IMG/VR virus record: IMGVR_UViG_3300030117_004491
Location: 1 to 24,837 of that record
Reading direction: 5' to 3' (one strand)
DNA: 24,837 bases
Origin: a virus
Positions 151 through 20,126 of this stretch are shown piece after piece. The stretch's first letter is position 1; every line of letters starts with the position of its first letter. Position numbers and translations under genes: made by a program. Under the pieces are notes generated by a model. That model was not told the DNA's origin. It did no database searches and saw only the letters and a list, made by a program, of their open reading frames with translations.

Positions 151-348
151 ATGAACATAAATAAAAACATTTTAAAAATAAAAGATATATTAAATCATAT
201 ACATTCTATATCGGTGCAGCACAGTAATCATACTGGAGATAAACCTATAAGCGAATTGTATAAACGTCAAATAGACAAAATACATAATCTTTTAGATAAA
301 ATAAAAAAAGAATGTAAACAAATTAATATTTACGGAAAGGATTATTAG
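151..348 (+). CDS. Small helical protein of unknown function (65 aa)
   Basis: The ATG at 151 follows AAGGAT at suitable spacing. The product is lysine- and isoleucine-rich (ILKIKDILNHIHSIS near the N-terminus, KIHNLLDKIKKECKQI near the C-terminus) and reads as two amphipathic helices joined by a polar segment. It has no signal peptide, membrane span or known motif. It is the first gene of a rightward cluster of small, probably early, phage genes, and the histone-fold gene starts 2 nt after its stop. I do not recognise the family. Confidence 0.65.
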   Translation: MNINKNILKIKDILNHIHSISVQHSNHTGDKPISELYKRQIDKIHNLLDKIKKECKQINIYGKDY

Positions 349-350
349 TA

Positions 351-545
351 ATGATAATACAAAAAACAAAAGTAAAGAAAATATTCAATGCTAATGGAAT
401 ACAGTTAAGTGCAGATACAATGGAAAGCATCAATAGAGAAATATTAACAAGTATTTCAAAAATGGCACATAGATGCAAAGAAAATAAAGTTAAAAGACTT
501 ACACCTGATTTAATGTGGTGTGCTCTTGGAAACTATAATTTATAA
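351..545 (+). CDS. Putative histone-fold DNA-binding protein (64 aa)
   Basis: The product has the helix-loop-long helix-loop-helix layout of a single histone fold. A short helix (VKKIFNANG, residues 8-16) is followed by a loop with LSAD, a long central helix (about 22-46, rich in I/M/L and K/R), a loop KVKRLT, and a last helix PDLMWCAL. The pattern S-x-D-x-x-x-x-[IL]N and [KR]-x-[LV]-T-x-x-[DE]-[LIV] follows archaeal-type histones, in which the R/K-T pair contacts DNA. The length (64 aa) fits a minimal fold. Known bacterial and viral relatives compact or bend DNA. The ribosome site AAAGGATT lies ahead of ATG 351. A DNA-packaging or host-chromatin role is inferred; an unrelated three-helix protein remains possible. 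Confidence 0.6.
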   Translation: MIIQKTKVKKIFNANGIQLSADTMESINREILTSISKMAHRCKENKVKRLTPDLMWCALGNYNL

Positions 546-562
546 TAACTTAAGTAGACTGA

Positions 563-624
563 AGTAGGGAACAGTAGAGTGTAGAGGACTAGTGCACAAG
601 TATACCGCCTCGACCTTCCCTACT
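563..624 (+). promoter_or_regulatory. Structured leader RNA in the 546-644 gap
   Basis: AGTAGGGAA (563-571) pairs perfectly over 9 bp with TTCCCTACT (616-624). Inside it, GAGG (584-587) can pair with CCTC (608-611) and ACT (588-590) with AGT (599-601), giving a second stem-loop with a loop containing the palindrome GTGCAC. The ribosome site TAAGGAG begins 7 nt after the closing stem, and the ATG is at 645. No U-run follows, so termination is unlikely. This fills most of the 99-nt gap between the histone-fold gene and the next gene. Confidence 0.55.
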
Positions 625-644
625 GACGTTTAAGGAGAATTTAA

Positions 645-794
645 ATGAAAGAATCATTTGAAGAAGAACTTATGAGAAAGTGTCAATTGTTAATTGATGC
701 TTTAGATAAGATAATAACAACAAGTGCAGACAGTGGTACTCTTAAAAAGATCGCTCGTCAATCACTAAATCTCGTATTAGAAAAGGAGAAATAA
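645..794 (+). CDS. Small helical protein of unknown function (49 aa)
   Basis: The ATG at 645 is preceded by TAAGGAG at good spacing, and TAA at 792-794 abuts the next ATG at 795. The translation begins MKESFEEELMRKCQLLIDAL and ends LVLEKEK. It is acidic at the start, basic in the middle (LKKIARQSLN) and probably helical throughout. There is no membrane span. The head-to-tail spacing and the shared AAGGAG site within its last codons suggest translational coupling to the membrane protein that follows. The family is not recognised. Confidence 0.65.
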   Translation: MKESFEEELMRKCQLLIDALDKIITTSADSGTLKKIARQSLNLVLEKEK

Positions 795-1013
795 ATGAAA
801 GATACAATATTATGGTATGCGTGGGAAATGTTTACAGGATCAGAAGCTAACGGTTGGTGGCTTATGATGTGTATACTAGCTATAGCATTAATAACATTTA
901 TATATCAAAATGCTAAAAGAGATAGTAAAGTAAATCTCTTATTAAAACATTTTAATATTGAGCTTAACGAAGAAAGTCTTTTAGATAAAATTAAAAAGTT
1001 ATTTAAAAGATGA
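795..1013 (+). CDS. Single-pass membrane protein (72 aa)
   Basis: The N-terminal part (about residues 18-38, WWLMMCILAIALITFIY) is one clear transmembrane helix. A basic stretch QNAKR and a charged amphipathic C-terminus (about 45-72) follow, so the C-terminus is probably cytoplasmic. An AAAAGGAG site precedes the ATG. The motif YQNAKR directly after the span is also found in the 106-aa late membrane protein at 21044-21364. The last 4 nt overlap the next gene as ATGA. Function is unknown; a superinfection-exclusion or host-membrane role is possible but unsupported. Confidence 0.7.
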   Translation: MKDTILWYAWEMFTGSEANGWWLMMCILAIALITFIYQNAKRDSKVNLLLKHFNIELNEESLLDKIKKLFKR

Positions 1014-1237
1014 ATAATAATGAAGAAATAGTTGATTTAATTAGAAAAAGGCTAAACAAAGGAAAAAAAGAATACGGAAAAGAAATAGACATATATGATG
1101 GCAGAGATTGGAACGTAGAGGCATTAGAAGAACTACTAGATGCTTGCGTTTATTTAGCGGCTAGTATGCTTAAAGTAATAAAGTCTGAAACTAAATTAAT
1201 ATCAATATTGATGGACAAAAACAAAGAGGAAAGCTAA
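1010..1237 (+). CDS. MazG-like (all-alpha NTP pyrophosphatase-like) mini-protein (75 aa)
   Basis: The product has an N-terminal helix of the type LIRKRLNKGKKEYG, a short linker, and a second helix with EALEELLDACVYLAASMLKV. The pattern R...G...YG, then EELLDA.VYLAA..L resembles small phage proteins related to all-alpha NTP pyrophosphohydrolases, whose EExxD/E acids bind magnesium. Only half of such a fold is present, so it may act as an oligomer or be a non-catalytic relative. It is translationally coupled by ATGA overlap to the upstream gene, and its TAA overlaps the next ATG by one base. Confidence 0.6.
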   Translation: MNNNEEIVDLIRKRLNKGKKEYGKEIDIYDGRDWNVEALEELLDACVYLAASMLKVIKSETKLISILMDKNKEES

Positions 1238-1395
1238 TGGGCAAACTAATGAGCAAAATTGAAAACATATACAAAGAGCGATTACTAGATTATGAAAGAG
1301 ATATTGCAGATTTAATACAAATAATAGAAAGGCTAACTAAAAAACAACAAAGTACTAGAAAAAAAGTAGAGGGATTAAAATATGGGAGCAATTGA
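1237..1395 (+). CDS. Small coiled-coil protein (52 aa)
   Basis: The ATG at 1237 overlaps the upstream TAA by one base (TAATG), with GAGGAAAG upstream as ribosome site. The translation runs MGKLMSKIENIYKERLLDYE and continues as a charged heptad-like helix ending in KKVEGLKYGSN before TGA at 1393-1395. It overlaps the next gene by 14 nt. Heptad spacing of I/L residues suggests a short coiled coil. Function is unknown. It is small, but the site, the coupling and the coding-like composition support it as real. Confidence 0.55.
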   Translation: MGKLMSKIENIYKERLLDYERDIADLIQIIERLTKKQQSTRKKVEGLKYGSN

Positions 1396-1723
1396 TCAAA
1401 ACGAATTAGCAGTAGGTAGATATAAAAACGCAAAAGAAGCATATAATAGTTTAGTAGAAGGTGCAGAATACAAGTATGGTCACAATGGCTACAATGGAAC
1501 AATATCTACATCTGATGGATTTAGAATGATAAAAAAACATCCTAGATATGGTACAAAAAAATTCTGGGATTTTGTTAATGCTACTATAGATAATACAAAG
1601 TGGGATAACTGGAATTGTATAGAACTAAAAGGAACTGCTTTAAAAAAAGCAAAAGAATACAATGGTTATAAAGGCAAACGTAACATTAAAGCCTTTTTCT
1701 TTTGGGGATTAGCAGCAACGTAA
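1382..1723 (+). CDS. Phage early protein of unknown function (113 aa)
   Basis: ATG 1382 follows AGAGGG at usable spacing. The protein is soluble and tyrosine/glycine-rich near YKYGHNGYNGTISTSDGF, has a central KFWDFVN helix and a WDNWNCIELKG strand, and ends in an aromatic FFFWGLAAT tail. The combination of a YGxxxYNGTI segment and a later CIEL.G strand looks like a family of small phage proteins I have only a weak sense of; I cannot name its function. It has no membrane span or catalytic motif. It sits mid-cluster among the small rightward genes. Confidence 0.65.
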   Translation: MGAIDQNELAVGRYKNAKEAYNSLVEGAEYKYGHNGYNGTISTSDGFRMIKKHPRYGTKKFWDFVNATIDNTKWDNWNCIELKGTALKKAKEYNGYKGKRNIKAFFFWGLAAT

Positions 1724-1744
1724 TAAAACATAAAAAGGAAAAGT

Positions 1745-2035
1745 ATGGCTAAATATATAAATGCAGACTTAAAACTAATTGATAAGTTTGAAGACGTAAT
1801 GTTATCATCTGATAAGTATACAAAAAACTTTGAAAAATGTTTAGAGTTAGCCGTTGATAAGATATTTGATAAAAAAACCAATAAATCGCTTAACATAAAA
1901 TCAACACTTGGTTATTTTATGAAAAAATATTATTGGTCACACGAACAAATAGAATCAGACAATCTCCCTATTGATAATATCTGTAGGGATTTTAATATAA
2001 CAATAGACGAAAAAAGTAATATGTATATATTGTAA
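1745..2035 (+). CDS. Protein of unknown function (96 aa)
   Basis: ATG 1745 is preceded by AAAAAGGAAAAG. The translation is mostly helical with many lysines (LKLIDKFEDVMLSSDKY, KCLELAVDKIFDKK) and a C-terminal beta-like end (FNITIDEKSNMYIL). No known motif, signal peptide or membrane span is visible. It is followed by 201 nt of structured non-coding sequence before the last small gene. Function is unknown. Confidence 0.6.
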   Translation: MAKYINADLKLIDKFEDVMLSSDKYTKNFEKCLELAVDKIFDKKTNKSLNIKSTLGYFMKKYYWSHEQIESDNLPIDNICRDFNITIDEKSNMYIL

Positions 2036-2042
2036 AACAACT

Positions 2043-2144
2043 TGGGGTATAAAAATAAAAATCAATAGGAAAAAATCAGCAATACTAAATAAAAGTTAGC
2101 ACAATATCTTTGTGTTGCTGATAGGCAGTTATGCCTTTACCCCA
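2043..2144 (+). ncRNA. Candidate structured RNA, multi-stem element
   Basis: Four compatible stems can be drawn by eye. P1 is TGGGGTA 2043-2049 with TACCCCA 2138-2144. P2 is ATCAGCAA 2075-2082 with TTGCTGAT 2115-2122. P3 is CACAA 2100-2104 with TTGTG 2110-2114, inside P2. P4 is AGGCA 2123-2127 with TGCCT 2132-2136, with a GTTA loop. P2 and P4 are directly adjacent, and one base separates P4 from the P1 strand, so helices could stack coaxially around one junction. No open reading frame occupies this space. I do not recognise it as any named riboswitch or tRNA. It could be an independent small RNA or the upstream half of the 2237 leader. Confidence 0.5.
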
Positions 2145-2151
2145 TTTAATT

Positions 2152-2216
2152 AGGGAAGTTTAGCATCCATTAGTACTTGTGGGATTGCACATAAAGGTCA
2201 GCCCTTTATCTTCCTT
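2152..2216 (+). promoter_or_regulatory. Three-way-junction leader RNA ahead of 2237 gene
   Basis: A closing stem AGGGAAG 2152-2158 pairs with CTTCCTT 2210-2216 (one G-U). Inside it lie two hairpins: GC-ATCC 2163-2168 with GGAT-GC 2182-2188 (one bulged T), and a perfect 7-bp ATAAAGG 2191-2197 with CCTTTAT 2203-2209 around TCAGC. The second hairpin abuts the closing strand, so the helices could stack. The ribosome site AAAGGAG starts about 10 nt after the closing stem. The geometry is riboswitch-like, but no known ligand-binding consensus is seen. Confidence 0.5.
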
Positions 2217-2236
2217 GTAAATTTAAAGGAGAACAT

Positions 2237-2461
2237 ATGAATTTAGATCCAACGATAATAAGAACTAGAACATCTACAAGTCTTTTAAAACTATTAACAG
2301 CTTGTAAAAAATATCTTAAACATAATATAAAATATCATTCTAATAAACTAAACAAAGAAAAAAATAAAAGAGCTGAAGACATTCTAAGAAGAATAGAGAA
2401 AGCTGAAAAAGTACATAAAGAAGAAATGGAAAGAGTTGGTTATCAAAAATATGAAGATTAG
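2237..2461 (+). CDS. Basic coiled-coil protein of unknown function (74 aa)
   Basis: ATG 2237 follows TTAAAGGAGAACAT, an excellent ribosome site. The product is very basic and helical (KHNIKYHSNKLNKEKNKRAE, then a K/E/R-rich heptad helix to the C-terminus). It has no membrane span. Its composition would suit nucleic-acid or phosphate-backbone contact, but no family is recognised. It is the last gene of the rightward block, 10 nt before a strong terminator, and is preceded by the longest structured leader of the window. Confidence 0.6.
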   Translation: MNLDPTIIRTRTSTSLLKLLTACKKYLKHNIKYHSNKLNKEKNKRAEDILRRIEKAEKVHKEEMERVGYQKYED

Positions 2462-2470
2462 AGTGTAACA

Positions 2471-2506
2471 AAAAAGGGAGGCGGCTTAGTGCTGCCTCTT
2501 TTTTTT
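2471..2506. terminator. Bidirectional intrinsic terminator between convergent blocks
   Basis: GAGGCGGC (2478-2485) pairs with GCTGCCTC (2491-2498) as an 8-bp GC-rich stem with one G-U pair and loop TTAGT. A run of eight T (2499-2506) follows on the plus strand and six A (2470-2475) precede it, giving a U-tract for the minus-strand transcript as well. It ends the rightward small-gene block and the leftward late block. The stop codon of the 3305-aa gene (2505-2507) lies at its edge. Confidence 0.9.
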
Positions 2507-5500
2507 ACACACTGCCTAAACTTTCTTCAATCTCTTCAGCTTGTAATGCTCTACGCTTTGCTCTTTCTAATCTTGAATCTATCTTGTTTATTGGTAATCT
2601 AAACAATACCTCACCTACTCTTTCAGGTCTTTCGTAGATTTGCTTACCCTGTCTGACTGCCCTACCAAATGGAAACATAGTATATACTGTATAATCACTA
2701 AACTTTTCCCAATCTCCAGTCATAAGTTCTATCATAGCTTCTGGTACTCTAGCTATAGGAGGCTTTAGTAAATTAGCAGGACCAAGCTTAGATCCAAAGA
2801 AAGCCATATCACGCTCACGTTTATCACCATACATCCAATCAGCTAAAGACTGAATCCAATCATAAGGAGGAGCTAATGCAGTATCAAATATACTAAACAT
2901 AAAAGCACCGCCTAATGCCATTAAAAACATATCAATCATAAACAAGTCTTTAAATCTTTCATACTCAGGAGTTCCATTTCTAAAGCCATAAAGCTTTGCC
3001 TGATTATAAAATTCCTTACGTACTCTTATTGAGTTCCAAACAAACAGCTTAAACCTAGATAAAACTTTACCAGTTGCTGTTCTCATAAAAGCAGGTCTTT
3101 GAGCATTCTGATACAAGAACTGTGAATTTTCTATACCTTTTAAAGCCATTTCAAAAACAAAATCATCTGATATATTTAAATTCCTACCTTCAGGTCCAAA
3201 CTTTTCAACTGCTTGTAAGCCATGAGCTATAAAAGCATTTAAACGATTAACTCTTTCAGAATGTTGCATAAAGAATCCACCGTATTTTACCATAGCATCT
3301 TTAACGCCATAGCGTTCAACAACTTGCAAAACACTTTCTTCACGCTGCTTGCCACGATTTTTAATAGCTTTGCTTATATCACGCCTAAAATCACTGATGT
3401 TAACGCCAGCTTTTTTAAGACCATTCTTTAAAGGTTCGTTATATTCAAATTCGTTTTGAATAAAATCATCCATAACGCCACGTTCTTTTAACCATTCATA
3501 CAGATCTTTTCTATTTTTAACTTTACTACCATTAAACAAATTTAATACAGCTTCACCTTTATCATTAGATAACAATCTCTCAAATATTTTTTTATCACTA
3601 AAAGAATTTCTAAAATTTCTAAATCCAGCACTAGCAATAGTCATTAGATTGCCACTAAATATATTTGTAGACCAAGTGCCAGTATTAGCTAATAAAGTCA
3701 TAAGCTCATACTGTGCTTCCATTCTGCCAAAGTCATGTATCTTTCTTGAAAAATACTCTTTCCTTGCTGCCTTATCTTTAGGAGCTTCTCTTAAAGTACT
3801 GCCTATAAAAGGAGCTTTATTCCATTTCTTTGACTTCCATAACTTCTCATACAGCTTAACCATATTTTGATCAGATGTCATATAAAACATATTTCTTTTA
3901 TCTTTTAAATATAAAGGATCTATTCCCTTTTGAACTTCAGACATAATCTGTTGAGGAAAATAAGACTGGTGTCCTAAAACACTTTGCATATACAACTTAG
4001 TATAATCAGCCCAAACATCTACATAGCTATCATATCTTTTACTGTCTTTAAACTTTTTAAGTTCAGCCTTGCTTGGTTTGTAATCTCCCATTCTATGCTT
4101 CATGTTGCTTATTTCATAGTCGCCTTTAATAGCAACAAGATTTTTATACCAGCCATTAATAAGTTTTGAATGATAATCTGTAATTAGAGTTGGTCTTTTA
4201 TCGTATCCTTTTAGATCGAAAAGTCTAGCTTCTAATACTCCAATCTTACTGTCAAATCCTAATTGATTTAATTTAACATCAAGGTCTGCATCTGTTAAAC
4301 CTTTGTGATCTATTAAATCTTTCATGCTAAAAAACTCTGTAGAAAACTGTGCTTTTCTTTCCATTAGTTTAATAAATCTTTGTCTAGCTTTATTTCCAAT
4401 TTGCTCAGCTTTAGTAAAATCATTTTCTGTAGGGTTTTTTATAGACTCTAAATATTCATTTTTAATTTTTTCTTTAATCTTTAAAGACTCTTTATTAACA
4501 GACTTAACAAACTCACGCTGTGCTCCTTCATTGTAGCCAAAATTTAAATGAGGTATGTATGCCTCTGTATTCTTTTCACCAATACCAGAAAACCTACTCT
4601 TACCTGAACGATAATTTCTAATAAAAGTATTCTGTTTTATTTTAGGGTTTGTAGCTGTTAACCTATTAAAATAATCCATCATTCTTTTTTCATACTCATA
4701 TCTTTTCAAGCCGTCAATTCCTACTAATCTTATTAGTTCAGGATTAGTTATATCCTTGTCTAAAACTTTATTTCTAAAGTTCTTAAAATCAAACACACCA
4801 TCTTTATTCCAACGCATATACTCATTAATAACGCCTTTGGTTTTTTTATACCAAGCGTCAAAATTGTCATCCATTTCCCACTTGCCAGTTTTGTCAGATA
4901 TTCTTTCACCTTTAGAATTATATGTGTATATCCATTTATTACCCATAGATTTAAAAAATTTAGTTAATTCATTATCAAGTCTTTTTAATACGGGAGACAT
5001 ATTTTCTTTATTGCCGGATTCTCTAATATCTACAATCTGTTTAAATAATTCCTTTCTTTGATTTACGGTGTACTTAGATAGTATATCACTAATAGGTTTT
5101 ATAACTTGTTCAGCTGCATTTCTATCTTTAGACATACCACGCTCAGACTTAAGAACATAATTAGATATAGCACCAATAGGAGACATAAACCTGTAAACAG
5201 GCTCTCTACGTATTTTACCAGAGCCATGCTTTACAGGAGCATAATATGTTTTATATTTATTAACCATTCCCTTCATAGCCATTTCACTATCAACAAACCT
5301 AGGATCTAAATGCCAATATCTTAATTTAAATTCAAGGCTATTTGGATCGTGAAACTGTTTCATGAATCTATTAATAGCTACAATGTCTTCCATTTTAAGA
5401 TCTGTAGCACTCCTTGGTATGCCTCTGCCGCTTAATTCTGCAGTAAAAAACTTAAACCATTCATTAAAATTCTCAGCTATAAAAGGATGCTCATCTAAAA

Positions 5501-8500
5501 ACTTTCTAAATTCTTTAACTTGTTTTACTTGTGGCTTGTTTATAGCCATCATATCCAAAGCTTTAGATTGTATAACTCTTTCTACTGTGTTAATAACTTC
5601 TTTCTTAGGCTTAGAAATAAAACTTTCTACAGGTATTTTAATATCTTCTTGTTTCTCTAAATTAGTTCTTCTAAATGTAAGGTTAATTCTTTGACCACGA
5701 GCTTTAGTACTCTTCTCTACTCCATGATCCCATCTTTCTTGAGTTTTACCTTGCATTATTAATAAATCTTTATCTGATAAAGGAACGTCTATTATTTTTT
5801 TACCACGCTTTAATTTAAAACTTACAGTTTCTCCAAAACTAAGCGAAGCTATAATAGGATTTTTTCCAAGTTCAGGTTCATTATCTTTATGCCAACCGAT
5901 ACTATCTTTTTCGTTTCTATATTTATTAGCTAAAACAGAATTAAATTCTACACCCGTTATATCTTCTACCTGTTTTTTAATTTCCAATAACTTAGGTGTC
6001 CATTCTTTTGGCTTATTTAATTTTAACGTATAAACATAATCAGTCCCCTTGTCTCCATAATAAGCTGTAAGCCTTGGTTCTTTACCAAATTTATTATAAC
6101 CTTGTTCCCATTCAACAGCTTTATCTACATCTTTAAAAGATACATTTTTCATTTTTTGTTTAAGATGTATTATATCTCCATTTTCATAATTAACAACTTT
6201 AGAATCTGGATTACGTTTAGATATATTATCAATAATCTTAACATCGAGCTGCATATCTGCTTTTTTATCTACAGATCTATTATAAACATCCTCTATCCTT
6301 GAATAAAATTCACGCCTTGTAAAAGGATCTATACGCTCAGAGCCGTGTATTAATTTTTGATAATTAATTATAGGGTAACCATTTTTATCTTTAACACCTG
6401 TTATTGGAGAAAGTAAAATGGTATGAAAATATTTCATTAGAGGTTCTGGATTTATATTATATTTATCAGCTAAATCATTAATACGCTTATTACCTAAAGC
6501 AATAGCTGTATCTATTTCAGCAGCAGGTGCTTTATCTATAATCATTTTATTTAGCTTCTTATTCATCCCCATTATTTGAGGAATTAATTCTTTAATAATA
6601 TTGCCTTTAATGCCCCTATTTACTAAAGACCTATGTATATCTACAAAATGTTTATTTGCGAGCTCTATGGTAGCAATTTGCCCCATTCCTTTGCTATATG
6701 ATTCTAAAGCAAAAGGTATACGATTTGAGCTTACTGCTTTTCCTATGTTATTTAGAGAAGGTATTAACATATCGCTAGTCAAAATACCCATATGATCATT
6801 AACAAACTTTTGAATTTCTTTAGTAGAATAAGAAACTAATGCTCCTTTTCTAATATTCTTTTTTTGTGCTTCACTCGCTTCAATCTTTTCTGGAGCTTGT
6901 AGTTTTACTTCTAAATCTCTGTAAAATTTTTGGTAAGCTTCTTTAAGATTACCAAATCTAAAACTTGCAAAATTTATTTTAGCATTCTCTAATCTTAATG
7001 GTAATGAACTAATAACAGATGTTCTAAAAGCATTATCACCTAAAGCTTTAGCAGATATTTTGCTATTAACAAAAGCAAGATCATATATATTCATAGCTGG
7101 TTTTGGAAATTCATTTACAAGAAGAGTTAATTTTTTATCAGCAGGTTGTGTTATATTTGTAATTCTTCTTTGACTTCCCTTTAATTTAACATTTGCACTT
7201 TCACCCAGTTCTAACCCTATATAAGATTTCCATTTTAAATCACCAACTATTTTATTCTTACCTTTCCATTCTAATGGTTCAGGAGGCTTTCTCCCACCTA
7301 CGGGTTTTCTAGCTTCAAACAAAGGTTTTATTCTCTCAGGAGAAATTGTTCTTGTTTTAGACCTAGGTTTAGCAACATTTACTGATTGAGCTAATAGTCC
7401 TAAAGAACCATTAAAATTTTCATTAATAATATCTTGATATTTTTTCTCACCAGAACTAATCATTTTACCCGGAGCATATTCAGCAGCAAGTCTAGCTAAT
7501 CTATGAGCATGACTATCAATTGCATTTGGCTGATAATACTTTAAAGTTTTACCTATAAGACTTCCTTCTTGCAAAGCTTTAACAATTTTTTGTCGTCTTT
7601 CTGGAAAAACTTCTAAATGATCAGTTCCTCTTATCCAATTTTCATAGCTATTAGCAGCATCTTCTCTGCTATTTGCTTTTATAAAACCCTGCTTTCTATA
7701 CCAATCTTTATTTTTATTCCATATTGCAGGATCAATAAAAGGATTGCCAAAAGTACTTCCTCTCATTGTCTCTATACCTTTATCACTTATGCGAGGAGGT
7801 CTAGCTAATTCATAAACATTAACATCAAACATTGAATCAAATAACATATCCCTAAATCTAGTATAAGGAATAACAGTAGGGTCGTTACTTGCGTCAGCTG
7901 ATTTATTTACTATTTTATATATAAGGTCACGAAAATATTGTTCATTAGGAATACCCTGAACATTGTATTCTTTTAAAGTAACATCATTTAAATAAGTCCT
8001 ACCAGATTTAGCATCATAAAAAGGAAAAGAATAAGAGCCTCCTTTTGATTTTACATAATCAACCCACTGTCTCATTACAACAGCAGAAGACAAGCCATAG
8101 CCTAAACCTTGTTTACCACTTGCGGCTCCTTGTGCAGCAATATGTCTGTAAGCTGGTGAAAATTTAAAGGCATTGTAAAATTCAAAATTAGGTTCTTCCT
8201 TTTTAACACCTCTAAATCTTTTCAACACTTCTTCGGGATTGCCTTTTATAATTGCACTTTTTTCATGAAACTGACTATCTAATTCGTTAGCATATTTTTC
8301 ATTGTATTTCTTTGGGTTGTCAGGATCTAAATGAATCCTTTCATCTGAAACTTTTTCTTGTTTAAAATAATTTCTTAGTTTCTCACTAAAGCCTTGAAAT
8401 ACTTTAATGCTATCAGCATCCTTATCAGCACCACCTAAATAATTATTATCAAAATGATGAGTAAAAGAACCAGCTCCTCTCTGTCCAGTAAAACCTCTAA

Positions 8501-11500
8501 ACCTAAGAACTCTTGTACCAGACATAGAATCAGCTGGAGTACGTATAACTGTTAAAGAAAAAGTATTTTTCCAGCCTTTATATTCTTTGCTGTTTTTATG
8601 CAATCTTTCAGGATTAGATCTTTTATAATAATTCCAAGCATCACCTAGTGTAATAGCACCTTTAGTTTTTTTAGTAGCATTTATTTTTGCTACTATATCA
8701 CGAGGAAGAAACTCTGTGCTAATAGGCATTAGTCTAAAAGCTTCATCTAAATAAATTTCACCTTTTTCTAAAGTTCTCCAATCTTCAGCCTTTAAATCCC
8801 TACCTTTAGTCTTAGCTGTTATTCTTTGTTTAGGCTGATCTTTTGGTCTTTTTCTAGGATCAATATCAACATAAGCCATTTGATCTGGAGTAAAAGCCTT
8901 AAGCCAAGACTTGCCACCATGTTCAACAAACGGATTAGAATATCTTCTAACAAAATATTTTTTTAAAGCATTTCCCCAGTTTTCAATAAACATAGTATTT
9001 CTAGTAAAATACTGATCACGCATAGACTCTGATATAGATTTATTTAAATCGTGATATTTAGTATAATCAGAATCAGCATCAAACTCAAAGTCTCTATCAA
9101 AGTATCCTTCTTTATCAAGCTTGTTTATTTTGTTCATAAATAAAGCTGTTAATTTTGGATCTTTATTATTTACTATTCTTTTAAGAACAAAATCAACTGG
9201 AAGTTCAAACACTCCAAGATCGTGACGTTCAAACAAATCTACAAATTCATTTTGAATAGCTTCTTTTTCTTTAGCAGATATTTTATCAAAAGACTTTAAA
9301 ACATTATTATATTCTTCAGCTAATTTTTTACCTCTGTCACTTCCTAGTACAGAACGATCTAAAACTTCTTTTAAATAAATATCTGTAAAACCAGATGCCT
9401 GATCTTTATTAGTTTGACCATAAAGCTGAATAGGAACTTCTTCTCCAATAACTTGTTTATAAGGCTTTTCAAAAGTACCAAGACTTAACTGTAAACTTTC
9501 TACTGGCATTTCATATACTTTTAAATCAGTAGGAAAAATTTCAGTCTGTAAAGCTTGTTCACCTTCTTTTGTTTTAAGCCATCCACGCTGATAGCCAATT
9601 TCACTTGTCTCATGCAATCCTCTAAGTTTTGCACCACTATCAAAAACAATAGCATCTATATTGTTTTGTTCCATAAACCTATTCCAAACTTCATTAGCTC
9701 TTTGTCCATTAGACTTGGTAGCTAATATACCTAAGTTTGTTCTACCTACAATAACAGGTTTATAATGCCCAGCTTGAGGATCTAAACCAACGCCTTTTAA
9801 ACCAGCGTCAAAAAACTTTTGTCTTATAATCATGCCTCCATCAGTATCGCTTATGCCAGTCATTCCTTTTACTTTTTGAAACGCATCGTCAGATGCAATA
9901 ACAATACGCATTTTACCATCAGGATTAGTTTGAGCAAAACTAGACGCTGATACTGGAGTCATTCTATTGGCAAGTAATTGCATTCTTTTATTTACGTCAG
10001 ATACGCTTTTCCCAAAGCCCGAAGATAACAACCTTCTAATACCTGTAAAATCACTGCCTTTAACAAGACCGTTATTAATAGCATCATTCATAACATTGGA
10101 CACCCATTTACGTTCATGTAAAGTAGTGTCACCAAATATAGGTTTTTCTGCTTCTAGAGATAGTTTATAAGACTCAGCTACAGCTTCTCTAACTCTGCTG
10201 TTGCCATTAGATAATAAATCAAATAACATTTCTTTTGTTATCTGCTGGTTGCCTATTCTATCTTTAAAAGTAGAAAGCATTAAAACGCCTTTATCCTTTA
10301 CGCCTGAATAAATATATTGATTCTTTTCAGCTAAAGCATCTTGCATTAAACTAATTTCTTTAGGCTCAAGATTAAACTTTATATTCTCACCTTCCATACG
10401 GTGACTTAATATTTTATTAGGAACGCCTTTAGGATCTATGTAATGAGTTAAAAACTGAAAACCTTCTCCTAATCTATTCAAAGGAAGCTCTATATATCTT
10501 TCACCGATTGTAACATTATTTATTTCCTCACCTTTAAACTTTAAATATCTTGGCATATTAACTTTATCATCAAACTTAATAGCTATTACTTCATTCATAG
10601 GTTCAGCATCTTGTAGAAAATGTGACCTTAGTTTAGCTTCAGTCTCAGAACCTATTTGTTTAGAATAAGGCTTGCCCTTAACTCTTCCTTTTGTATCTGG
10701 TATTAATCCTCTTGGTTCCGTTCCTCTTATGTATATATGTTTATCATCGCCAGCTGTATGCTTTAATATATAATGGTCTTCAAATTTTACTATCTCATTC
10801 GCAAAGTTTACACCCCCACCTTCTCCTTTTTTTATAGAAGCTAATTGTTCTCTTGCTTGTGATAAATTATCGACAACCCAAACATCTTGAAAATCTCCAG
10901 TTTTGTCCTTTATCTTTGGGTTTTCATACATATCAACTTTTACATCATATATTTTCTTGCTTCTGCCACTTACCTGATCCTCACCAACAACTTTTTTAAT
11001 ATTTTGTATAAATAATTCTGGATCTGGTTTGTTGTTTACAATACTTTTATCTCTAGCTTTTTCCATCGCATCAACAAATCTTCCGATGTCAGGATATAAA
11101 TTTTTATCTGCTTTTTCATAAAAACCTTTAGCTAGGTTTACAATCTTTTGTCTTCTTATTTCAACTGGATCGTGAAAGTCTTCATTCTGTGGATTAGCTA
11201 CAGCATTTTCACGGATTACAGCTTCTACAAATTTCTGCCTAGAAAGTTCATCTTGTAACCTAGAAGCTTCTTTTCTGTAAAATCTATTTATATCGCTTTG
11301 CCCATACTCATCTGGTTTGTGTTTTCCTAAATGAGCTTCAGCTTTTGCTCTCCAACGAGTATTTGGAAAATAATTTTCTAAAAAACTTAAAGCCATTCCT
11401 GAAGAACCAGCTAGGTTTTCAGAGTTTCCTTTAATGTTCCCAGCTTCATGTTCGTTAAGTATATACTCTCTAGTTTTTGTTGTGTATTCTTTAAAATCTT

Positions 11501-12422
11501 TAGAAGATTCTGGATCTAAATTTTCACTTTGTTTTCTTTCTGGCTTAACAATCCATTCTTGAGCTGCTGCTTTATAAGCAGGTCTTGTATTGTAACCAAA
11601 AAAACCACCTAATAAATATTCATATATTTGCATCTCTGTAGGTTCATTACGCAATGTAGCTGGTAAACCAGTAACCATAGCACCCAAACCAGTACGTAAT
11701 ATTTTCTCAGCTCTGTCTATTTGTTGAGGAGTCCCTTTAAACAAATTACCTAAAGACACAAAATTACCTATACCACCAAAAGCACCACCAGCTATAGCAC
11801 CACCTATATAGCTATCAACAATAGCATCTGTCCCTTTCCAAACACTACTTACAGCACTAGCAGATGCCAGACCTAAAGCTTCTTCTCCTATAGCTCTAGT
11901 TCTAGACCCTCTTGCTAAAAAGTCCATAGACTCTAAACCAGTTTTCTGAAGTTGTTTATCTATTAATCTTTTTGTAGCTCTTGAAGCTAACATAGGAACA
12001 GCTATAGCATCTAATCTATCTATACCTGCTATAGTAGCTTTAGTTATAGTACCACCTAATACATCTTTCATTTTAGCACCAGTTAACTTAGATGTAACTT
12101 TAGCTAAACCATATATGGGAGCTTTCATAATACCGGGAGCAAAACCAGCAAGATGACCAAGCTGTCTAAAAATAGCTTCACCAGTATTGCGTGGTTCTTT
12201 AGGTATTAAATCTAATGTAGTTAAACCTTCAACAAAACCAGCAGTAGCCTGTTGAAATGCTCGTCTTATTGAGAAAGGGCTTTGCTTACGTTTAAACTCT
12301 ATAAGATTATCAGCAGCTAAGCGTTCAAGCTCATCAAGCTGATCTTCATTAAACATATCAGGGTTAGTCCTGTACTGATTAATTAGCCCCTGAACTTTGT
12401 AGGCTTCATAAGGTGACGGCAT
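2505..12422 (-). CDS. Giant virion-type polyprotein: two-barrel RNA polymerase-like, DUF4326-like and AlkB domains (3305 aa)
   Basis: The N-terminus (residues 10-90) is a module shared with the adjacent 197-aa protein. It is followed by a Gly/Ala-rich, partly hydrophobic region (about 55-290). Residues about 858-935 contain DGGMII, GHYKPVIVG (K888) and DSGAKLRG (K932), like the first double-psi barrel of phage single-chain RNA polymerases. Residues 1294-1340 (RTPADSMSG, then GADKDADSIKVF) match the second barrel with the DxDxD triad D1333/D1335/D1337, and SADASNDP (about 1508-1515) recalls a conserved motif further downstream in that family. A DUF4326-like domain has GNPF at 1559-1562 and a C-terminal H where the family has CxxCH. 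The AlkB domain (about 2080-2255) keeps HxD H2178/D2180, H2233, R2245 and R2251. The C-terminal 700 residues are helical with a hydrophobic span near 3160-3180. The ATG overlaps the upstream stop (TAATG) with only a weak ribosome site. Ejection with the genome is inferred. Confidence 0.85.
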   Translation of the reverse strand: MPSPYEAYKVQGLINQYRTNPDMFNEDQLDELERLAADNLIEFKRKQSPFSIRRAFQQATAGFVEGLTTLDLIPKEPRNTGEAIFRQLGHLAGFAPGIMKAPIYGLAKVTSKLTGAKMKDVLGGTITKATIAGIDRLDAIAVPMLASRATKRLIDKQLQKTGLESMDFLARGSRTRAIGEEALGLASASAVSSVWKGTDAIVDSYIGGAIAGGAFGGIGNFVSLGNLFKGTPQQIDRAEKILRTGLGAMVTGLPATLRNEPTEMQIYEYLLGGFFGYNTRPAYKAAAQEWIVKPERKQSENLDPESSKDFKEYTTKTREYILNEHEAGNIKGNSENLAGSSGMALSFLENYFPNTRWRAKAEAHLGKHKPDEYGQSDINRFYRKEASRLQDELSRQKFVEAVIRENAVANPQNEDFHDPVEIRRQKIVNLAKGFYEKADKNLYPDIGRFVDAMEKARDKSIVNNKPDPELFIQNIKKVVGEDQVSGRSKKIYDVKVDMYENPKIKDKTGDFQDVWVVDNLSQAREQLASIKKGEGGGVNFANEIVKFEDHYILKHTAGDDKHIYIRGTEPRGLIPDTKGRVKGKPYSKQIGSETEAKLRSHFLQDAEPMNEVIAIKFDDKVNMPRYLKFKGEEINNVTIGERYIELPLNRLGEGFQFLTHYIDPKGVPNKILSHRMEGENIKFNLEPKEISLMQDALAEKNQYIYSGVKDKGVLMLSTFKDRIGNQQITKEMLFDLLSNGNSRVREAVAESYKLSLEAEKPIFGDTTLHERKWVSNVMNDAINNGLVKGSDFTGIRRLLSSGFGKSVSDVNKRMQLLANRMTPVSASSFAQTNPDGKMRIVIASDDAFQKVKGMTGISDTDGGMIIRQKFFDAGLKGVGLDPQAGHYKPVIVGRTNLGILATKSNGQRANEVWNRFMEQNNIDAIVFDSGAKLRGLHETSEIGYQRGWLKTKEGEQALQTEIFPTDLKVYEMPVESLQLSLGTFEKPYKQVIGEEVPIQLYGQTNKDQASGFTDIYLKEVLDRSVLGSDRGKKLAEEYNNVLKSFDKISAKEKEAIQNEFVDLFERHDLGVFELPVDFVLKRIVNNKDPKLTALFMNKINKLDKEGYFDRDFEFDADSDYTKYHDLNKSISESMRDQYFTRNTMFIENWGNALKKYFVRRYSNPFVEHGGKSWLKAFTPDQMAYVDIDPRKRPKDQPKQRITAKTKGRDLKAEDWRTLEKGEIYLDEAFRLMPISTEFLPRDIVAKINATKKTKGAITLGDAWNYYKRSNPERLHKNSKEYKGWKNTFSLTVIRTPADSMSGTRVLRFRGFTGQRGAGSFTHHFDNNYLGGADKDADSIKVFQGFSEKLRNYFKQEKVSDERIHLDPDNPKKYNEKYANELDSQFHEKSAIIKGNPEEVLKRFRGVKKEEPNFEFYNAFKFSPAYRHIAAQGAASGKQGLGYGLSSAVVMRQWVDYVKSKGGSYSFPFYDAKSGRTYLNDVTLKEYNVQGIPNEQYFRDLIYKIVNKSADASNDPTVIPYTRFRDMLFDSMFDVNVYELARPPRISDKGIETMRGSTFGNPFIDPAIWNKNKDWYRKQGFIKANSREDAANSYENWIRGTDHLEVFPERRQKIVKALQEGSLIGKTLKYYQPNAIDSHAHRLARLAAEYAPGKMISSGEKKYQDIINENFNGSLGLLAQSVNVAKPRSKTRTISPERIKPLFEARKPVGGRKPPEPLEWKGKNKIVGDLKWKSYIGLELGESANVKLKGSQRRITNITQPADKKLTLLVNEFPKPAMNIYDLAFVNSKISAKALGDNAFRTSVISSLPLRLENAKINFASFRFGNLKEAYQKFYRDLEVKLQAPEKIEASEAQKKNIRKGALVSYSTKEIQKFVNDHMGILTSDMLIPSLNNIGKAVSSNRIPFALESYSKGMGQIATIELANKHFVDIHRSLVNRGIKGNIIKELIPQIMGMNKKLNKMIIDKAPAAEIDTAIALGNKRINDLADKYNINPEPLMKYFHTILLSPITGVKDKNGYPIINYQKLIHGSERIDPFTRREFYSRIEDVYNRSVDKKADMQLDVKIIDNISKRNPDSKVVNYENGDIIHLKQKMKNVSFKDVDKAVEWEQGYNKFGKEPRLTAYYGDKGTDYVYTLKLNKPKEWTPKLLEIKKQVEDITGVEFNSVLANKYRNEKDSIGWHKDNEPELGKNPIIASLSFGETVSFKLKRGKKIIDVPLSDKDLLIMQGKTQERWDHGVEKSTKARGQRINLTFRRTNLEKQEDIKIPVESFISKPKKEVINTVERVIQSKALDMMAINKPQVKQVKEFRKFLDEHPFIAENFNEWFKFFTAELSGRGIPRSATDLKMEDIVAINRFMKQFHDPNSLEFKLRYWHLDPRFVDSEMAMKGMVNKYKTYYAPVKHGSGKIRREPVYRFMSPIGAISNYVLKSERGMSKDRNAAEQVIKPISDILSKYTVNQRKELFKQIVDIRESGNKENMSPVLKRLDNELTKFFKSMGNKWIYTYNSKGERISDKTGKWEMDDNFDAWYKKTKGVINEYMRWNKDGVFDFKNFRNKVLDKDITNPELIRLVGIDGLKRYEYEKRMMDYFNRLTATNPKIKQNTFIRNYRSGKSRFSGIGEKNTEAYIPHLNFGYNEGAQREFVKSVNKESLKIKEKIKNEYLESIKNPTENDFTKAEQIGNKARQRFIKLMERKAQFSTEFFSMKDLIDHKGLTDADLDVKLNQLGFDSKIGVLEARLFDLKGYDKRPTLITDYHSKLINGWYKNLVAIKGDYEISNMKHRMGDYKPSKAELKKFKDSKRYDSYVDVWADYTKLYMQSVLGHQSYFPQQIMSEVQKGIDPLYLKDKRNMFYMTSDQNMVKLYEKLWKSKKWNKAPFIGSTLREAPKDKAARKEYFSRKIHDFGRMEAQYELMTLLANTGTWSTNIFSGNLMTIASAGFRNFRNSFSDKKIFERLLSNDKGEAVLNLFNGSKVKNRKDLYEWLKERGVMDDFIQNEFEYNEPLKNGLKKAGVNISDFRRDISKAIKNRGKQREESVLQVVERYGVKDAMVKYGGFFMQHSERVNRLNAFIAHGLQAVEKFGPEGRNLNISDDFVFEMALKGIENSQFLYQNAQRPAFMRTATGKVLSRFKLFVWNSIRVRKEFYNQAKLYGFRNGTPEYERFKDLFMIDMFLMALGGAFMFSIFDTALAPPYDWIQSLADWMYGDKRERDMAFFGSKLGPANLLKPPIARVPEAMIELMTGDWEKFSDYTVYTMFPFGRAVRQGKQIYERPERVGEVLFRLPINKIDSRLERAKRRALQAEEIEESLGSV

Positions 12423-13327: not shown

Positions 13328-13920
13328 TAAAGCCCTGCTCTTGCACCCATATTAATAACATTTGGATTACCAGCTGTAAGTTGTAATAAATCACGATTAG
13401 CACCTCTAGCAAAACCCCATCTTAGTTCATCTAAAAAACTAGGACCAAATTGATTTTGACCTCTTGCAGTACTAGTAAAAGTATTTTTAGATCTTCTGTA
13501 AAAATCCCCAGCTTGTTCTGCATATTTAGGAGCTGCCTGTCTAGCAGACGCTAAACCTCTTTTTGCTGCTCCAAAACCTCTTCCTGCTGCTCCTGCAATA
13601 GCCATTGGATTTGCTAAAGCTAACAAACCTCCTGCAGCTAATGGTATTCCCATTCCTAACTGACCAGCAAACCTTTCTGATTTTGTTTCTCCAAATACAG
13701 ATTCACCTCTTGATCTTGGTCGCCATTCATTAGGCAACATACCAAGCATAGTTGTATCTGCTAAATCAAAAGCAAATTTTTTCAAAGCTTTTGATTCTCT
13801 TGGAAAACGAAATCCATATTGATTAGCCAAAACAGCTATTTGTTCAGCTTGCCTATCCGTAAACTGCCTTGGGTCGTTTTCGTATTGGTACATTAAAGAC
13901 TGTATTAATAATGGATTCAT
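13327..13920 (-). CDS. Internal virion protein sharing the N-terminal module of the giant protein (197 aa)
   Basis: Residues 7-90 align by eye with residues 12-95 of the 3305-aa protein. The shared pattern is QY..(N/D)P..F..(D/R)Q...(L/I)..LA....(F), then a helix, L/MLP.EWRPR.RGE..F, and a (L/F)AG..G. turn. A Gly/Ala-rich hydrophobic segment (about 90-125, LAAGGLLALANPMAIAGAAG) follows, then a basic tail. No catalytic motif is present. The layout fits a small ejected or core protein whose N-terminus carries a shared virion-loading or membrane-entry signal. It is joined by TAATG overlaps to both neighbours. Confidence 0.7.
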   Translation of the reverse strand: MNPLLIQSLMYQYENDPRQFTDRQAEQIAVLANQYGFRFPRESKALKKFAFDLADTTMLGMLPNEWRPRSRGESVFGETKSERFAGQLGMGIPLAAGGLLALANPMAIAGAAGRGFGAAKRGLASARQAAPKYAEQAGDFYRRSKNTFTSTARGQNQFGPSFLDELRWGFARGANRDLLQLTAGNPNVINMGARAGL

Positions 13921-16829: not shown

Positions 16830-19372
16830 TATGTTGTTCTCTTTTTAATTGTTCTATACTCAACACTAATATCATTAATCCAAAGAACAGGATCTTCAGC
16901 TCCTGAATTGTATCGTATTTGAATTTTTTCACAAGATATAGGAGAATCTGGAGCTATTTTTACAGTAGCCCAGTCTTGTCCACTATTACCAGTAGCAGCT
17001 ATTGTTCCATTTAAAGCTGTAGTGCCATCATAAGTTATAGCTGTAAAATCATTGGTTATGTCTTCATCTGATTTATAAGTAATATAAACAGCATATACTT
17101 TCTTCATAGATGAAGGATCTCCAAAGTCAATCATTTTTGTTGTGAATTGTGTATACGTTGTTTTAGAATAAGGTCTAGGATAAGAACTATCATTTCTATC
17201 AATTGTATATAAATCAGCTTGACTTCCTGCATCGTGAAATAAATATATATTTTGATCTTGATCTACGCTATTAGTAATTCCGTCATTTGTATCTGGAATA
17301 AAGTTTTTTATATATGTAAAAGATTGCTTTTTTAAATTACACATATAAGCATCACCATCACTGCTTACATTTTTAATAACATAAACTAAAGATTCCTGAC
17401 CATCGTAAATAATAGAACTATTTGATCCAACATGATCGCTCCATGTTAAATCATCTATTTTTTCTTCTGATAGATTAACTATTGTTTTACCATTATATAA
17501 AAACAAACCATTTGGATTTGCAAATACTATACCATACTGAGTTTTCTTTACAAGCTCTGGATTTCTAACACCTGCGTATCTTAAACTTTCTTCTAAAAAC
17601 CAAGAAGAATCGTCAGGTGAAGATATATTAATAATATCTAAAGTAAATCTTTTAAATGCTAACAAACGATCACCGAATGAATCTATGGCTGTATACCAAT
17701 CTGCATCTCCTTTAGCTGCTTCTATAAAATTAATTGAGGGAAATGTATCATACCTATTAGGCATTGAATACATAATTCTATCTGGCTTATTAACGACATT
17801 TGCATAAACTTTAGATATTCCTTGTTCTTCATCCTTAATTGAAACATTACAAACAAAAGCTCTATTATTTGCAATGCAAGCATCTTTCCAGTTTTCACCT
17901 GCGTCTCCTAAAGCATTGCTAAATATATCAGAACTATAACCATTAATAACTTCATATGTAAGTAGTCCCAATTCTCTAACAACAAAATTATCAGAAGCTG
18001 TAGCTGTTGGACAATTAAATGTAGTACTACTAGCATCATGCCAAGGAGTATATTCATCTGAAAATTTAGTTCTACAGCCTTTTGATAAATCTATATCAAC
18101 TAACATAATCCATTCTGAATCAGTTCCTTCCTCTCTAATGTATATTCTGCCACCAGTTAACCTAGGATCGTAAGCTCCTTTAGCTGTTACATTTAAAGAT
18201 AAAGATTGTAAATCATTTGCATCAGCAATAGTATGTGTATTTGTATACTTAAGCGGAAGAGACTCTTGGTTTCCATCGTAAATAAATGTACTTGCACATT
18301 CATAAACACCTGCAGGTATAGCTCCTGCCTCATCAGTATCTGTAATTATATTAAGATTAAAACCAAGTCCTGCACTTGACGGGTATGTAGTATAATTAGC
18401 AGGAGACGCTGTAGATGCTGAAAGTAAAGTTTTGCTAGTTGGTGGTGCTAATCTATTATCTTTAGCATAGTATCCTTGGTATTTATCAGTATTGCCAGCT
18501 GCTCCTATATTCCCATCCCAACTAAAATGTTCTCTTTGGATATATCCATACCATTTTATAGTAGAAACATTATTTGATACAGTATCACAACAACGTATAG
18601 CTTCATCTACTTGATAATATAAAACTTTAGAATTAACACCAGTAGCAGTAGAGTTTAATGTTATTGAGTCTTGTTCCCATTTGGTACCTGCAGTATTAAA
18701 AGAAAAAACATCTATTTTATGTTCATCGGGGTGAGCTAACAATAAAAGTTTATCACCTGATGCGTTACCTTTTAAAGTAGCGTACCAACCATTAAGGTAA
18801 CTAGTTGAACCTGTTGGTTCATCATCGTGGTCAATAGTTCTGTTTAATATAATATTATTTCCACTGTGACCAACAACTTTATAATACCCTGCAGCTCCTG
18901 CATCCGCACCTTTATTTAACGTACTTCCCATATTTAATTCTATGTCTGTTCCAACTGGAAAAGAAGAAGCTAAATTTACATCAGCACCTGCAGATGCTCC
19001 TGAAATACCCCTAGCTCCCATAATTAAAGAAGAAGCACCACCTACCATATAAAACCCACGTTCACTTCCACCTACTCCAGAAGCAGTACCATCTGAAGAT
19101 TCAAAAGCAACAGTAACAGGGTCCCTGACTCTATCAGTTTCAAAATAACCTAAACCGTAACCAGCCTCTATGTGATCTACATGGCTTGTACTATAAGTAG
19201 CTTGTGCTAATCTTCCATTTGTGTTAATTGAAAAAGCAGGAGTCATAATACCAAACTTATTAAACATAAGATTCTGGACTGCAGCAACTTCACTATTTCT
19301 AATATCAGCATCGTCTTGCAAGGTATTTAAACCACCACTAAAATCTTTAAATTGATAAATTTGTTTAGGCAC
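16829..19372 (-). CDS. Tail/neck beta-rich protein (tail nozzle or stopper type, 847 aa)
   Basis: The N-terminus (FKDFSGGLNTLQDDADIRNS, then EVAAVQNLMFNKFGIM) is the characteristic opening of phage tail-nozzle/neck proteins in the T7 gp12 and P22 gp10 style. The remaining length is beta-strand-rich. It includes the recurrent segment GDRLLAFKRFTLDIINIS, then an EES..AGVRNP..V stretch and GIVFANPNGLFLYNGK, all typical of propeller-like tail proteins. The start codon is GTG (19370-19372), with GGAGG 11 nt upstream and no nearby alternative ATG. It overlaps the phosphoesterase gene by 8 nt. The protein probably sits at the bottom of the portal or tail. Exact homologue is uncertain. Confidence 0.75.
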   Translation of the reverse strand: MPKQIYQFKDFSGGLNTLQDDADIRNSEVAAVQNLMFNKFGIMTPAFSINTNGRLAQATYSTSHVDHIEAGYGLGYFETDRVRDPVTVAFESSDGTASGVGGSERGFYMVGGASSLIMGARGISGASAGADVNLASSFPVGTDIELNMGSTLNKGADAGAAGYYKVVGHSGNNIILNRTIDHDDEPTGSTSYLNGWYATLKGNASGDKLLLLAHPDEHKIDVFSFNTAGTKWEQDSITLNSTATGVNSKVLYYQVDEAIRCCDTVSNNVSTIKWYGYIQREHFSWDGNIGAAGNTDKYQGYYAKDNRLAPPTSKTLLSASTASPANYTTYPSSAGLGFNLNIITDTDEAGAIPAGVYECASTFIYDGNQESLPLKYTNTHTIADANDLQSLSLNVTAKGAYDPRLTGGRIYIREEGTDSEWIMLVDIDLSKGCRTKFSDEYTPWHDASSTTFNCPTATASDNFVVRELGLLTYEVINGYSSDIFSNALGDAGENWKDACIANNRAFVCNVSIKDEEQGISKVYANVVNKPDRIMYSMPNRYDTFPSINFIEAAKGDADWYTAIDSFGDRLLAFKRFTLDIINISSPDDSSWFLEESLRYAGVRNPELVKKTQYGIVFANPNGLFLYNGKTIVNLSEEKIDDLTWSDHVGSNSSIIYDGQESLVYVIKNVSSDGDAYMCNLKKQSFTYIKNFIPDTNDGITNSVDQDQNIYLFHDAGSQADLYTIDRNDSSYPRPYSKTTYTQFTTKMIDFGDPSSMKKVYAVYITYKSDEDITNDFTAITYDGTTALNGTIAATGNSGQDWATVKIAPDSPISCEKIQIRYNSGAEDPVLWINDISVEYRTIKKRTT

Positions 19373-20126
19373 TAATTATTTTACCTCCATAAGCAGTAAC
19401 TCCATCAACTATATCAAGAACAACAATATTAAAATTGTTATTAGTAAATATATCTATAATGCCAACATTGTGAGTCCAGTTTGTAGGTCTTCCTTTTAAA
19501 AAGTCTTTTTCCATTTTACTTAAGCACCCCATTGAATACGCCATATGTGCTCCGTCAATGTGTTGCACGGTTGATTTCTGACTGTCATGAGTGTGCCCGT
19601 AGATAATGTTACATCCCATTTGCAAGGCGTGAGTTCTGGCATGGTGTATTCCACTATAGTGACCTCCGTGATAGACGTACAATTTACTTCCAAGGAGTTT
19701 AAATACTTTACCATACTTATGCCATTCATATCCTCTCTCCTTTATTTTAAAAGCTTCATAGGAAGAAAGATGGGACATAAAAGGATTTTCTTCCACGAAA
19801 TTGTCAAACCAAAGTTCGTGATTTCCTTGTGCCATAATTTTCTTTTTACATTTAACATCTTTTAAAACCTTATCTATTCTATCTAAACCAGAATTAATAT
19901 AATTAACTTCTTCCCAAATTTCAGGAAGTTGATATTCAAGAGGTGGTCGTTTTCTCTTTTTCCACTTCCAATGAGAGACACTTTCACCTTCTGCAAAATC
20001 TCCAAGACATAAAAAAGCACTAGGCTTTACTTCTTTTATTACATTTAAAGCACATGAGAAAGCCTTTTCATCTTCTTTTGGAAAATGAATATCTGGAAAA
20101 ACCACTACTTGATGTTTTATTTTCAT
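19365..20126 (-). CDS. Calcineurin-like metallophosphoesterase (253 aa)
   Basis: All five metal-binding blocks are visible in order: D12-x-H14, G42-D43, G101-N102-H103-E104, H153-G154 and G177-H178-T179-H180. The length is normal for a single-domain enzyme. These proteins hydrolyse phosphodiesters or phosphomonoesters with two bound metals; the substrate here cannot be told. The insert between blocks 2 and 3 (HWKWKKRKRPPLEYQLPEIW) is basic and aromatic, suggesting nucleic acid. The ribosome site is weak (GGATGACAA). The gene lies between the lysozyme and tail genes, 3 nt after the former, which is an unusual place for a nuclease-like enzyme. It may be packaged or simply late-expressed. Confidence 0.85.
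   Translation of the reverse strand: MKIKHQVVVFPDIHFPKEDEKAFSCALNVIKEVKPSAFLCLGDFAEGESVSHWKWKKRKRPPLEYQLPEIWEEVNYINSGLDRIDKVLKDVKCKKKIMAQGNHELWFDNFVEENPFMSHLSSYEAFKIKERGYEWHKYGKVFKLLGSKLYVYHGGHYSGIHHARTHALQMGCNIIYGHTHDSQKSTVQHIDGAHMAYSMGCLSKMEKDFLKGRPTNWTHNVGIIDIFTNNNFNIVVLDIVDGVTAYGGKIISA

Follow-up and report, generated by a model that had tools for sequence, protein, structure and literature searches.

The viral record IMGVR_UViG_3300030117_004491 of IMG/VR (positions 1 to 24,837, analysed here as one stretch of 24,837 nucleotides and called the window) raises the question of what a single giant protein of 3305 amino acids (aa) does for its phage. In a preliminary description, made from the sequence alone, two double-psi-barrel (DPBB) signatures of RNA polymerases (RNAPs) had been noticed in this one protein, together with a likeness to the virion polymerases of crAss-like phages. 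According to our analysis, residues ~640-1540 very probably form a complete single-chain two-barrel DNA-dependent RNAP, which would be injected by the phage and would read its early genes. The fold, homology, conserved catalytic residues, purifying selection and motif enrichment are supported by computation; activity, packaging, injection and promoter use are inferred from two virion polymerases, gp66 of Cellulophaga phage phi14:2 and gp96 of P23-45.

Does the protein have the fold of a polymerase? A structure prediction had been set beforehand as the check, and it returned a two-barrel polymerase fold, the one that human RNA polymerases have too. The AlphaFold2 model of residues 640-1620, made from 40 homologs, reached a predicted local distance difference test score (pLDDT) of 78.4 and a predicted template modelling score of 0.79, and Foldseek against the PDB matched it to gp66, the phi14:2 virion RNAP (E 1.7e-9), as the sole match below 1e-3. 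The other PDB matches listed were polymerase chains, essentially all of the two-barrel kind. Upon VIA re-alignment, the highest score was obtained with QDE-1 (Z 18.4, 507 residues aligned, root mean square deviation 5.4), followed by plant RDR2 (Z 16.9), P74 gp62 (Z 12.1), gp66 (Z 11.9 over 642 residues) and P23-45 gp96 (Z 9.8); Z values under ~8 are common by chance, and those observed lie above that, gp96 only somewhat. A single superposition covers both barrels of QDE-1 and of gp66, and at the level of the model the two signatures thus belong to one two-barrel fold at residues ~640-1540. Moreover, searching BFVD with the model gave 21 matches at E <= 1e-3, several of which are crAss-like phage proteins.

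The announced likeness to crAss-like virion polymerases was borne out by profile comparison as well. As a single sequence, gp66 gave too weak a result in hhalign (probability 0.2), yet in register, and an alignment of 11 crAss-like RNAPs (A4) was therefore needed. Compared with the alignment of the window family (A3), it gave an E-value of 7e-7, a probability of 91.9 and a score of 71 over 455 columns, spanning both barrels with the catalytic residues in register; none of 30 column-shuffled versions of A3 scored above 17.5, and reversing the alignment gave 23. The two stretches singled out at the start, residues 858-935 and 1294-1340, fall on the two crAss barrels in this register. Neither of the outcomes named beforehand as refuting, a model lacking the two barrels or profiles leading to another fold, was thus obtained. 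The genome itself is of another kind, as a relative of the window (G001, ~47 kb) has an N4-like TerL, a P22-type portal and Erf. Judging from sequence, the window protein is related by profile to the crAss-like virion RNAPs but is not encoded by a member of the Crassvirales.

The motifs were found where they had been described, namely DGGMII at residues 861-866, K888, K932, RTPADSMSG from residue 1294 and GADKDADSIKVF with D1333, D1335 and D1337. Their conservation goes beyond chance. We compared 80 distinct homologous loci that had been fetched solely by short DPBB-A peptides, DPBB-B not being used for selection: R1294, P1296 and the three Asp are kept in 80/80, including 10 loci found without the YLGGADKD pattern, and D861, K888, K903 and K932, lying 350-470 residues from the DPBB-A motifs, are invariant in all 78 rows that could be aligned upstream. 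The corresponding D, K, K, K, RxP and three Asp are also invariant throughout the 11 crAss-like polymerases. Two marks of the two-barrel superfamily, the DxDxD triad and the conserved basic residues of DPBB-B, are present. It could be argued that short DxDxD-like motifs are common and that the standard profile libraries are silent, so that the resemblance would be a matter of chance in an unrelated fold. The predicted fold, the profile alignment with its shuffled controls and the invariance of both barrels refute this as far as computation can, and we regard it as extremely improbable.

A further point concerns the catalytic loop, which had been described as ADKDAD in place of the ADFDGD attributed to the crAss-like enzymes, with all three Asp retained and Ala for the central Gly. 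The three Asp and the Ala are indeed there; the expectation of Gly does not hold, because gp66 has SDFDID and all 11 crAss-like sequences read D-x-D-x-D with the consensus DFDID, thus Ile, and Gly is no invariant of the family. Across the 80 loci the second and third Asp flank Ala in 35, Ser in 30, Gly in 9 and Ile in 6 (L010, L261 and other members carry G or I), and this residue changes repeatedly within the fully supported clade of 13 to which the window belongs. Could DKDAD nevertheless be a loss of function, leaving a catalytically dead relic that an injected multi-domain protein keeps for its structure or for binding DNA? The loop differs from the cellular DFDGD at two positions (K and A), and domains come and go in large injected proteins, the AlkB pattern described below being an example. 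However, the three Asp and the distant Lys and Asp are invariant in 78-80 loci. Published work (Drobysheva et al. 2021, as cited in PMC10770324 and PMC7886860) describes gp66 as active, and its triad is DFDID, so that Ala at this place does not speak for an inactive enzyme. In addition, the ratio of non-synonymous to synonymous substitution rates (dN/dS) in the module is 0.13 and 0.18 (window against its relatives L002 and L004) and 0.05-0.10 in DPBB-B; these values point to purifying selection and therefore argue against a relic. We rejected the dead relic on conservation and consider it quite improbable.

How would such an enzyme serve the phage? The giant protein would be made late, packaged and then injected with the phage DNA. 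D1333, D1335 and D1337 of DPBB-A would hold two catalytic magnesium ions, DPBB-B would contribute K888, K903 and K932 to two-metal catalysis, and the long helix after DPBB-A, in which GK-x-G-x-G resembles the GKSGVG of gp66, would occupy the place of the bridge helix. Transcription of the early block, which lies on the other strand, would then begin before the host RNAP is involved, probably from the motif YTCCYYTATKTNTRGYA.

The gene order of G001 fits this scheme. One strand carries the terminase (phrog_38; its nearest counterparts, at ~24%, are in N4-like phages), the P22-type portal, the tail fibre and further genes that are presumed to be structural, with the giant gene last; small genes and those for a helicase, Erf and DUF932 lie on the opposite strand and face the giant gene. 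We count this position, last in the structural cluster and facing the early block, in favour of an injected polymerase. The small rightward genes of the window are plausibly the part of the presumed early block that lies farthest from its promoter, because they lie on the strand opposite to the giant gene and that strand holds the helicase/Erf/DUF932 block in relatives. A hairpin with a T-run, which the automated terminator scan did not list, separates these converging genes from the giant gene. On a side note, two gaps between the rightward genes (window 560-645 and 2040-2236, + strand) have long complementary arms (GTAGGGAA...TTCCCTAC; GGGGTA...TACCCC).

Here another possibility has to be considered, in which the polymerase is active but not injected early: it may be made after infection for middle or late genes, in the manner of P23-45 gp64, or be primase-like or RNA-templated like QDE-1. 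Among the two-barrel RNAPs of phages there are virion as well as non-virion enzymes (PMC10770324), and QDE-1, which is RNA- and DNA-templated, is the top VIA match. Yet the module sits within a polypeptide of ~3000 aa that closes the structural-gene cluster, as in phi14:2, where mass spectrometry underlies the annotation of the giant RNAP as structural. The non-virion enzymes gp64 and YonO are small stand-alone proteins. Since the early block also has its own motif, we hold this possibility to be unlikely, although less so than a dead relic, and retain the injected early-gene polymerase as the preferred reading.

The motif in question, the phage-specific YTCCYYTATKTNTRGYA, was found 20-70 bases upstream of early genes in G001 and in a second record, G004; in some cases a terminator-like hairpin directly precedes it, and a short inverted repeat (GGCAATTCTGCC) often comes next. 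Sites occur in L159 (G001, ~36.2-39.0 kb), L156 (G004, 65.7-73.2 kb) and L177 (G006, 36.6-38.7 kb). A matrix built from eight G001/G004 sites was applied to seven other, independent records. With the loosest threshold, 12 matches followed by a Shine-Dalgarno sequence and a start fell on the early strand and none on the giant-gene strand, and stricter thresholds gave 10:0 to 6:0. The placement upstream of genes is a stronger point than this strand count. Sigma-70-like sites, by comparison, were not above chance in the early region of G001 (15 found, 20.4 expected). On these grounds YTCCYYTATKTNTRGYA is a candidate promoter, and the injected enzyme would be its cognate polymerase. Separately, repeats of ~35 bases (AAGTTRAAAAAYGGnATTg) form an iteron- or operator-like array in G001, between early genes (L159 18164-18364; ~38.2-38.4 kb), that was not seen in G004. 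A second repeat array of G001 (AAGTTRAAAAnnGG) was likewise not found in G004 and was not considered further.

Several observations weigh against an injected early-gene polymerase. Pfam, PHROGs and NCBIfam profile searches gave no match to an RNAP family, and a PDB sequence search with the giant protein returned AlkB and no polymerase; because such libraries see only the AlkB domain and a weak C-terminal match of PLxRFG type, the RNAP claim was tested by the other means described above. The residue between the second and third Asp is not Gly, which holds equally for the active gp66. The model of the C-terminal part, whose role in packaging would be conjectural, reached a pLDDT of 61, too poor for a structure search. 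As for YTCCYYTATKTNTRGYA, it was derived from relatives and was not found upstream of the window genes, the window covering no more of the early block than its distal end. Since the two strands differ in composition, the strand count may be biased when taken by itself.

Apart from polymerase function, the extent of the family deserves attention. The first locus scans had found only four near relatives (L002-L005, 75-92%), and a large family in IMG/VR came to light once the catalytic loop was searched for as degenerate DNA patterns (GGADKDxD and GGADxDGD), with ORFs mostly of 1500-3200 aa where the locus does not cut them off. Two sequence types were seen, R-T-P-A-D-S-M-S-G-T-R...Y-L-G-G-A-D-K-D-[A/S/G]-D and R-V-P-M-D-S-x-S-G-A-H...L-G-G-A-D-L-D-G-D, which the 80 distinct loci of a further scan bridge. 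Read from dataset accessions, the family seems mostly marine, and the near relatives come from apparently marine datasets. A full-length distant homolog of 2633 aa (L174 6863-14761, 28-34%) lies on a 46-kb contig of the Prochlorococcus single-cell genome AG-436-M02, possibly from an uncharacterised cyanophage lineage or a co-sorted virus, and one family fragment lies in a Flavobacteriaceae metagenome-assembled genome; neither proves the host of the window phage. Among 50,697 GenBank phage records (INPHARED, crAss-like phages included), tblastn gave no match for the N-terminal, RNAP and C-terminal parts, nor for two distant family members. The consensus peptide of the catalytic loop gave weak matches only (E 3-10), 13 of 14 in Lactococcus phages, and the RefSeq copies of these are annotated "RNA-dependent RNA polymerase". 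The family has no description in the literature searched and no name in the profile libraries. Two other observations were made during these scans: L074, L105 and L138 form a separate group of phage proteins with an RNAP-like loop (HDF...GGADxDGD), not aligned to the window family, and in two cases the record is ~200 kb long; the 88,986-bp record G004 (L153-L157) consists of two different phage-like halves of ~45 kb, each with a giant gene (3078 and 3030 aa), and looks like a joined or chimeric assembly.

The AlkB domain is the other enzymatic part of the giant protein. A sequence search matched it in the PDB to AlkB homolog 3 (E 4.6e-31), and the metal-site residues (HKD and H) are intact in the window, as befits a 2-oxoglutarate (2OG)-Fe(II) dioxygenase. 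It is found within an open giant frame of 3000-3300 aa in 6 of 49 family records, the window included, and is absent from relatives of 92% identity; from this distribution it appears to be a recurrently gained or lost domain. As a guess, it may clear methyl lesions from the incoming template or from the first transcripts, and its recurrent insertion raises the question of whether template repair is coupled to first transcription.

Characterised examples of injected two-barrel polymerases come from crAss-like phages and a single group of Thermus phages. The present family is large in the searched data and belongs to uncultured phages whose genomes are of ordinary size. Its catalytic loop accepts A, S, G or I, and YTCCYYTATKTNTRGYA gives it a concrete candidate promoter. 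We therefore put forward, tentatively and at slightly less than even chances, that an unnamed, widespread, podovirus-like lineage of small genomes, apparently mostly marine, starts infection with an injected two-barrel RNAP and the dedicated promoter YTCCYYTATKTNTRGYA, a scattered subset using AlkB to clear alkylation from the template or the first transcripts. If this is true, a start of infection independent of the host RNAP would be common in viral metagenomes.

The features of the window are collected in the table. With regard to the remaining parts of the giant protein, residues 9-422 have 34% identity in the phage homolog of the Prochlorococcus single-cell genome, the connector between the barrels is less conserved (59% to L004), the DUF4326-like stretch is missing in L004 and L005, and the C-terminal region is among the best-conserved parts and has one hydrophobic segment (3157-3185). 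In L003, a relative of 92% identity, the giant gene is split into two frames (~13818-14380), by assembly error or by a real interruption.

Table. Features of the window, with positions, strand and the basis of each assignment
Feature	Positions	Strand	Basis
Small rightward genes	151..2461	+	gene calls; gene order of G001
Hairpin and T-run, intrinsic terminator by sequence	2476..2506	+	read directly
Giant ORF, 3305 aa, with the two-barrel RNAP inside	2505..12422	-	near relatives L002-L005, 75-92% identity
N-terminal region, residues 1-639	10506..12422	-	conserved in part among relatives
RNAP module, residues 640-1540	7803..10505	-	AlphaFold2 model, Foldseek and VIA matches, hhalign
DPBB-B-like barrel, residues 850-940	9603..9875	-	invariant D861/K888/K903/K932, aligned with crAss invariants
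D861, invariant DPBB-B Asp (TDG; crAss TDA)	9840..9842	-	conservation and crAss alignment
K888, invariant DPBB-B basic residue	9759..9761	-	conservation and crAss alignment
K903, invariant DPBB-B basic residue	9714..9716	-	conservation and crAss alignment
K932, invariant DPBB-B basic residue	9627..9629	-	conservation and crAss alignment
Connector or clamp-like helical region between barrels, residues 941-1284	8571..9602	-	secondary structure of the model
DPBB-A barrel, R1294-x-P1296 and catalytic loop, residues 1285-1345	8388..8570	-	motif and conservation
Catalytic triad D1333-K-D1335-A-D1337 (DKDAD)	8412..8426	-	three Asp in 80/80 relatives
Long helix after DPBB-A, residues 1423-1459, bridge-helix position	8046..8156	-	AlphaFold2 model, H784-820
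DUF4326-like stretch (GNPF ... YQPNAIDSHAHRLA), residues ~1546-1640	7503..7787	-	weak: E 0.08, under the curated cut-off
AlkB-type 2OG-Fe(II) dioxygenase domain, residues 2092-2251	5670..6149	-	PF13532, E 2e-27; HxD...H...R..R present
C-terminal region, residues 2290-3305	2508..5555	-	mainly helical; low-confidence model
Metallophosphoesterase gene, same leftward cluster	19365..20126	-	phrog_221, E 7e-27; PF00149

How does the window protein compare with known systems? QDE-1 and RDR2 are the best structural matches of the whole module (Z 17-18), yet they are cellular enzymes of RNA interference, RNA- and DNA-templated, without a virion context. YonO of Bacillus phage SPbeta (PMC5467207) is likewise a single-chain DNA-dependent RNAP, whose catalytic Asp triad was shown by the 3D>3N mutation, but it is a stand-alone protein of ~100 kDa. 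In its logic, the scheme recalls the N4 virion RNAP, a giant injected enzyme that is the product of a late gene and reads early genes, although that enzyme has the unrelated T7-type palm fold whereas the window module is of the double-psi-barrel kind; a PF00940 (T7-type RNAP) search of the relatives found nothing, but the control genomes were silent too. P23-45 gp96, a virion RNAP fused to the tail tape measure protein (PMC10770324; PDB 8H2M/8H2N), also has a two-barrel module in a giant virion protein and is proposed to transcribe during DNA entry; it differs in being a clamp-less siphovirus tail protein with DFDGD, and it is the weaker structural match. Finally, phi14:2 gp66 (6VR4) shares only ~12% identity with the window protein and has 2180 aa rather than 3305, without the DKDAD loop and the extra AlkB domain, and the relatives of the window, with their genomes of ~47 kb and N4-like terminase, stand apart from the Crassvirales of ~100 kb. 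Nonetheless, the two have in common a single chain with two DPBB barrels in the same order, a DxDxD whose last Asp is preceded by a residue other than Gly (DFDID in gp66), the same set of Asp and Lys in DPBB-B, an RxP before the triad and a GKxGxG helix after it, all within a giant protein encoded with the structural genes.

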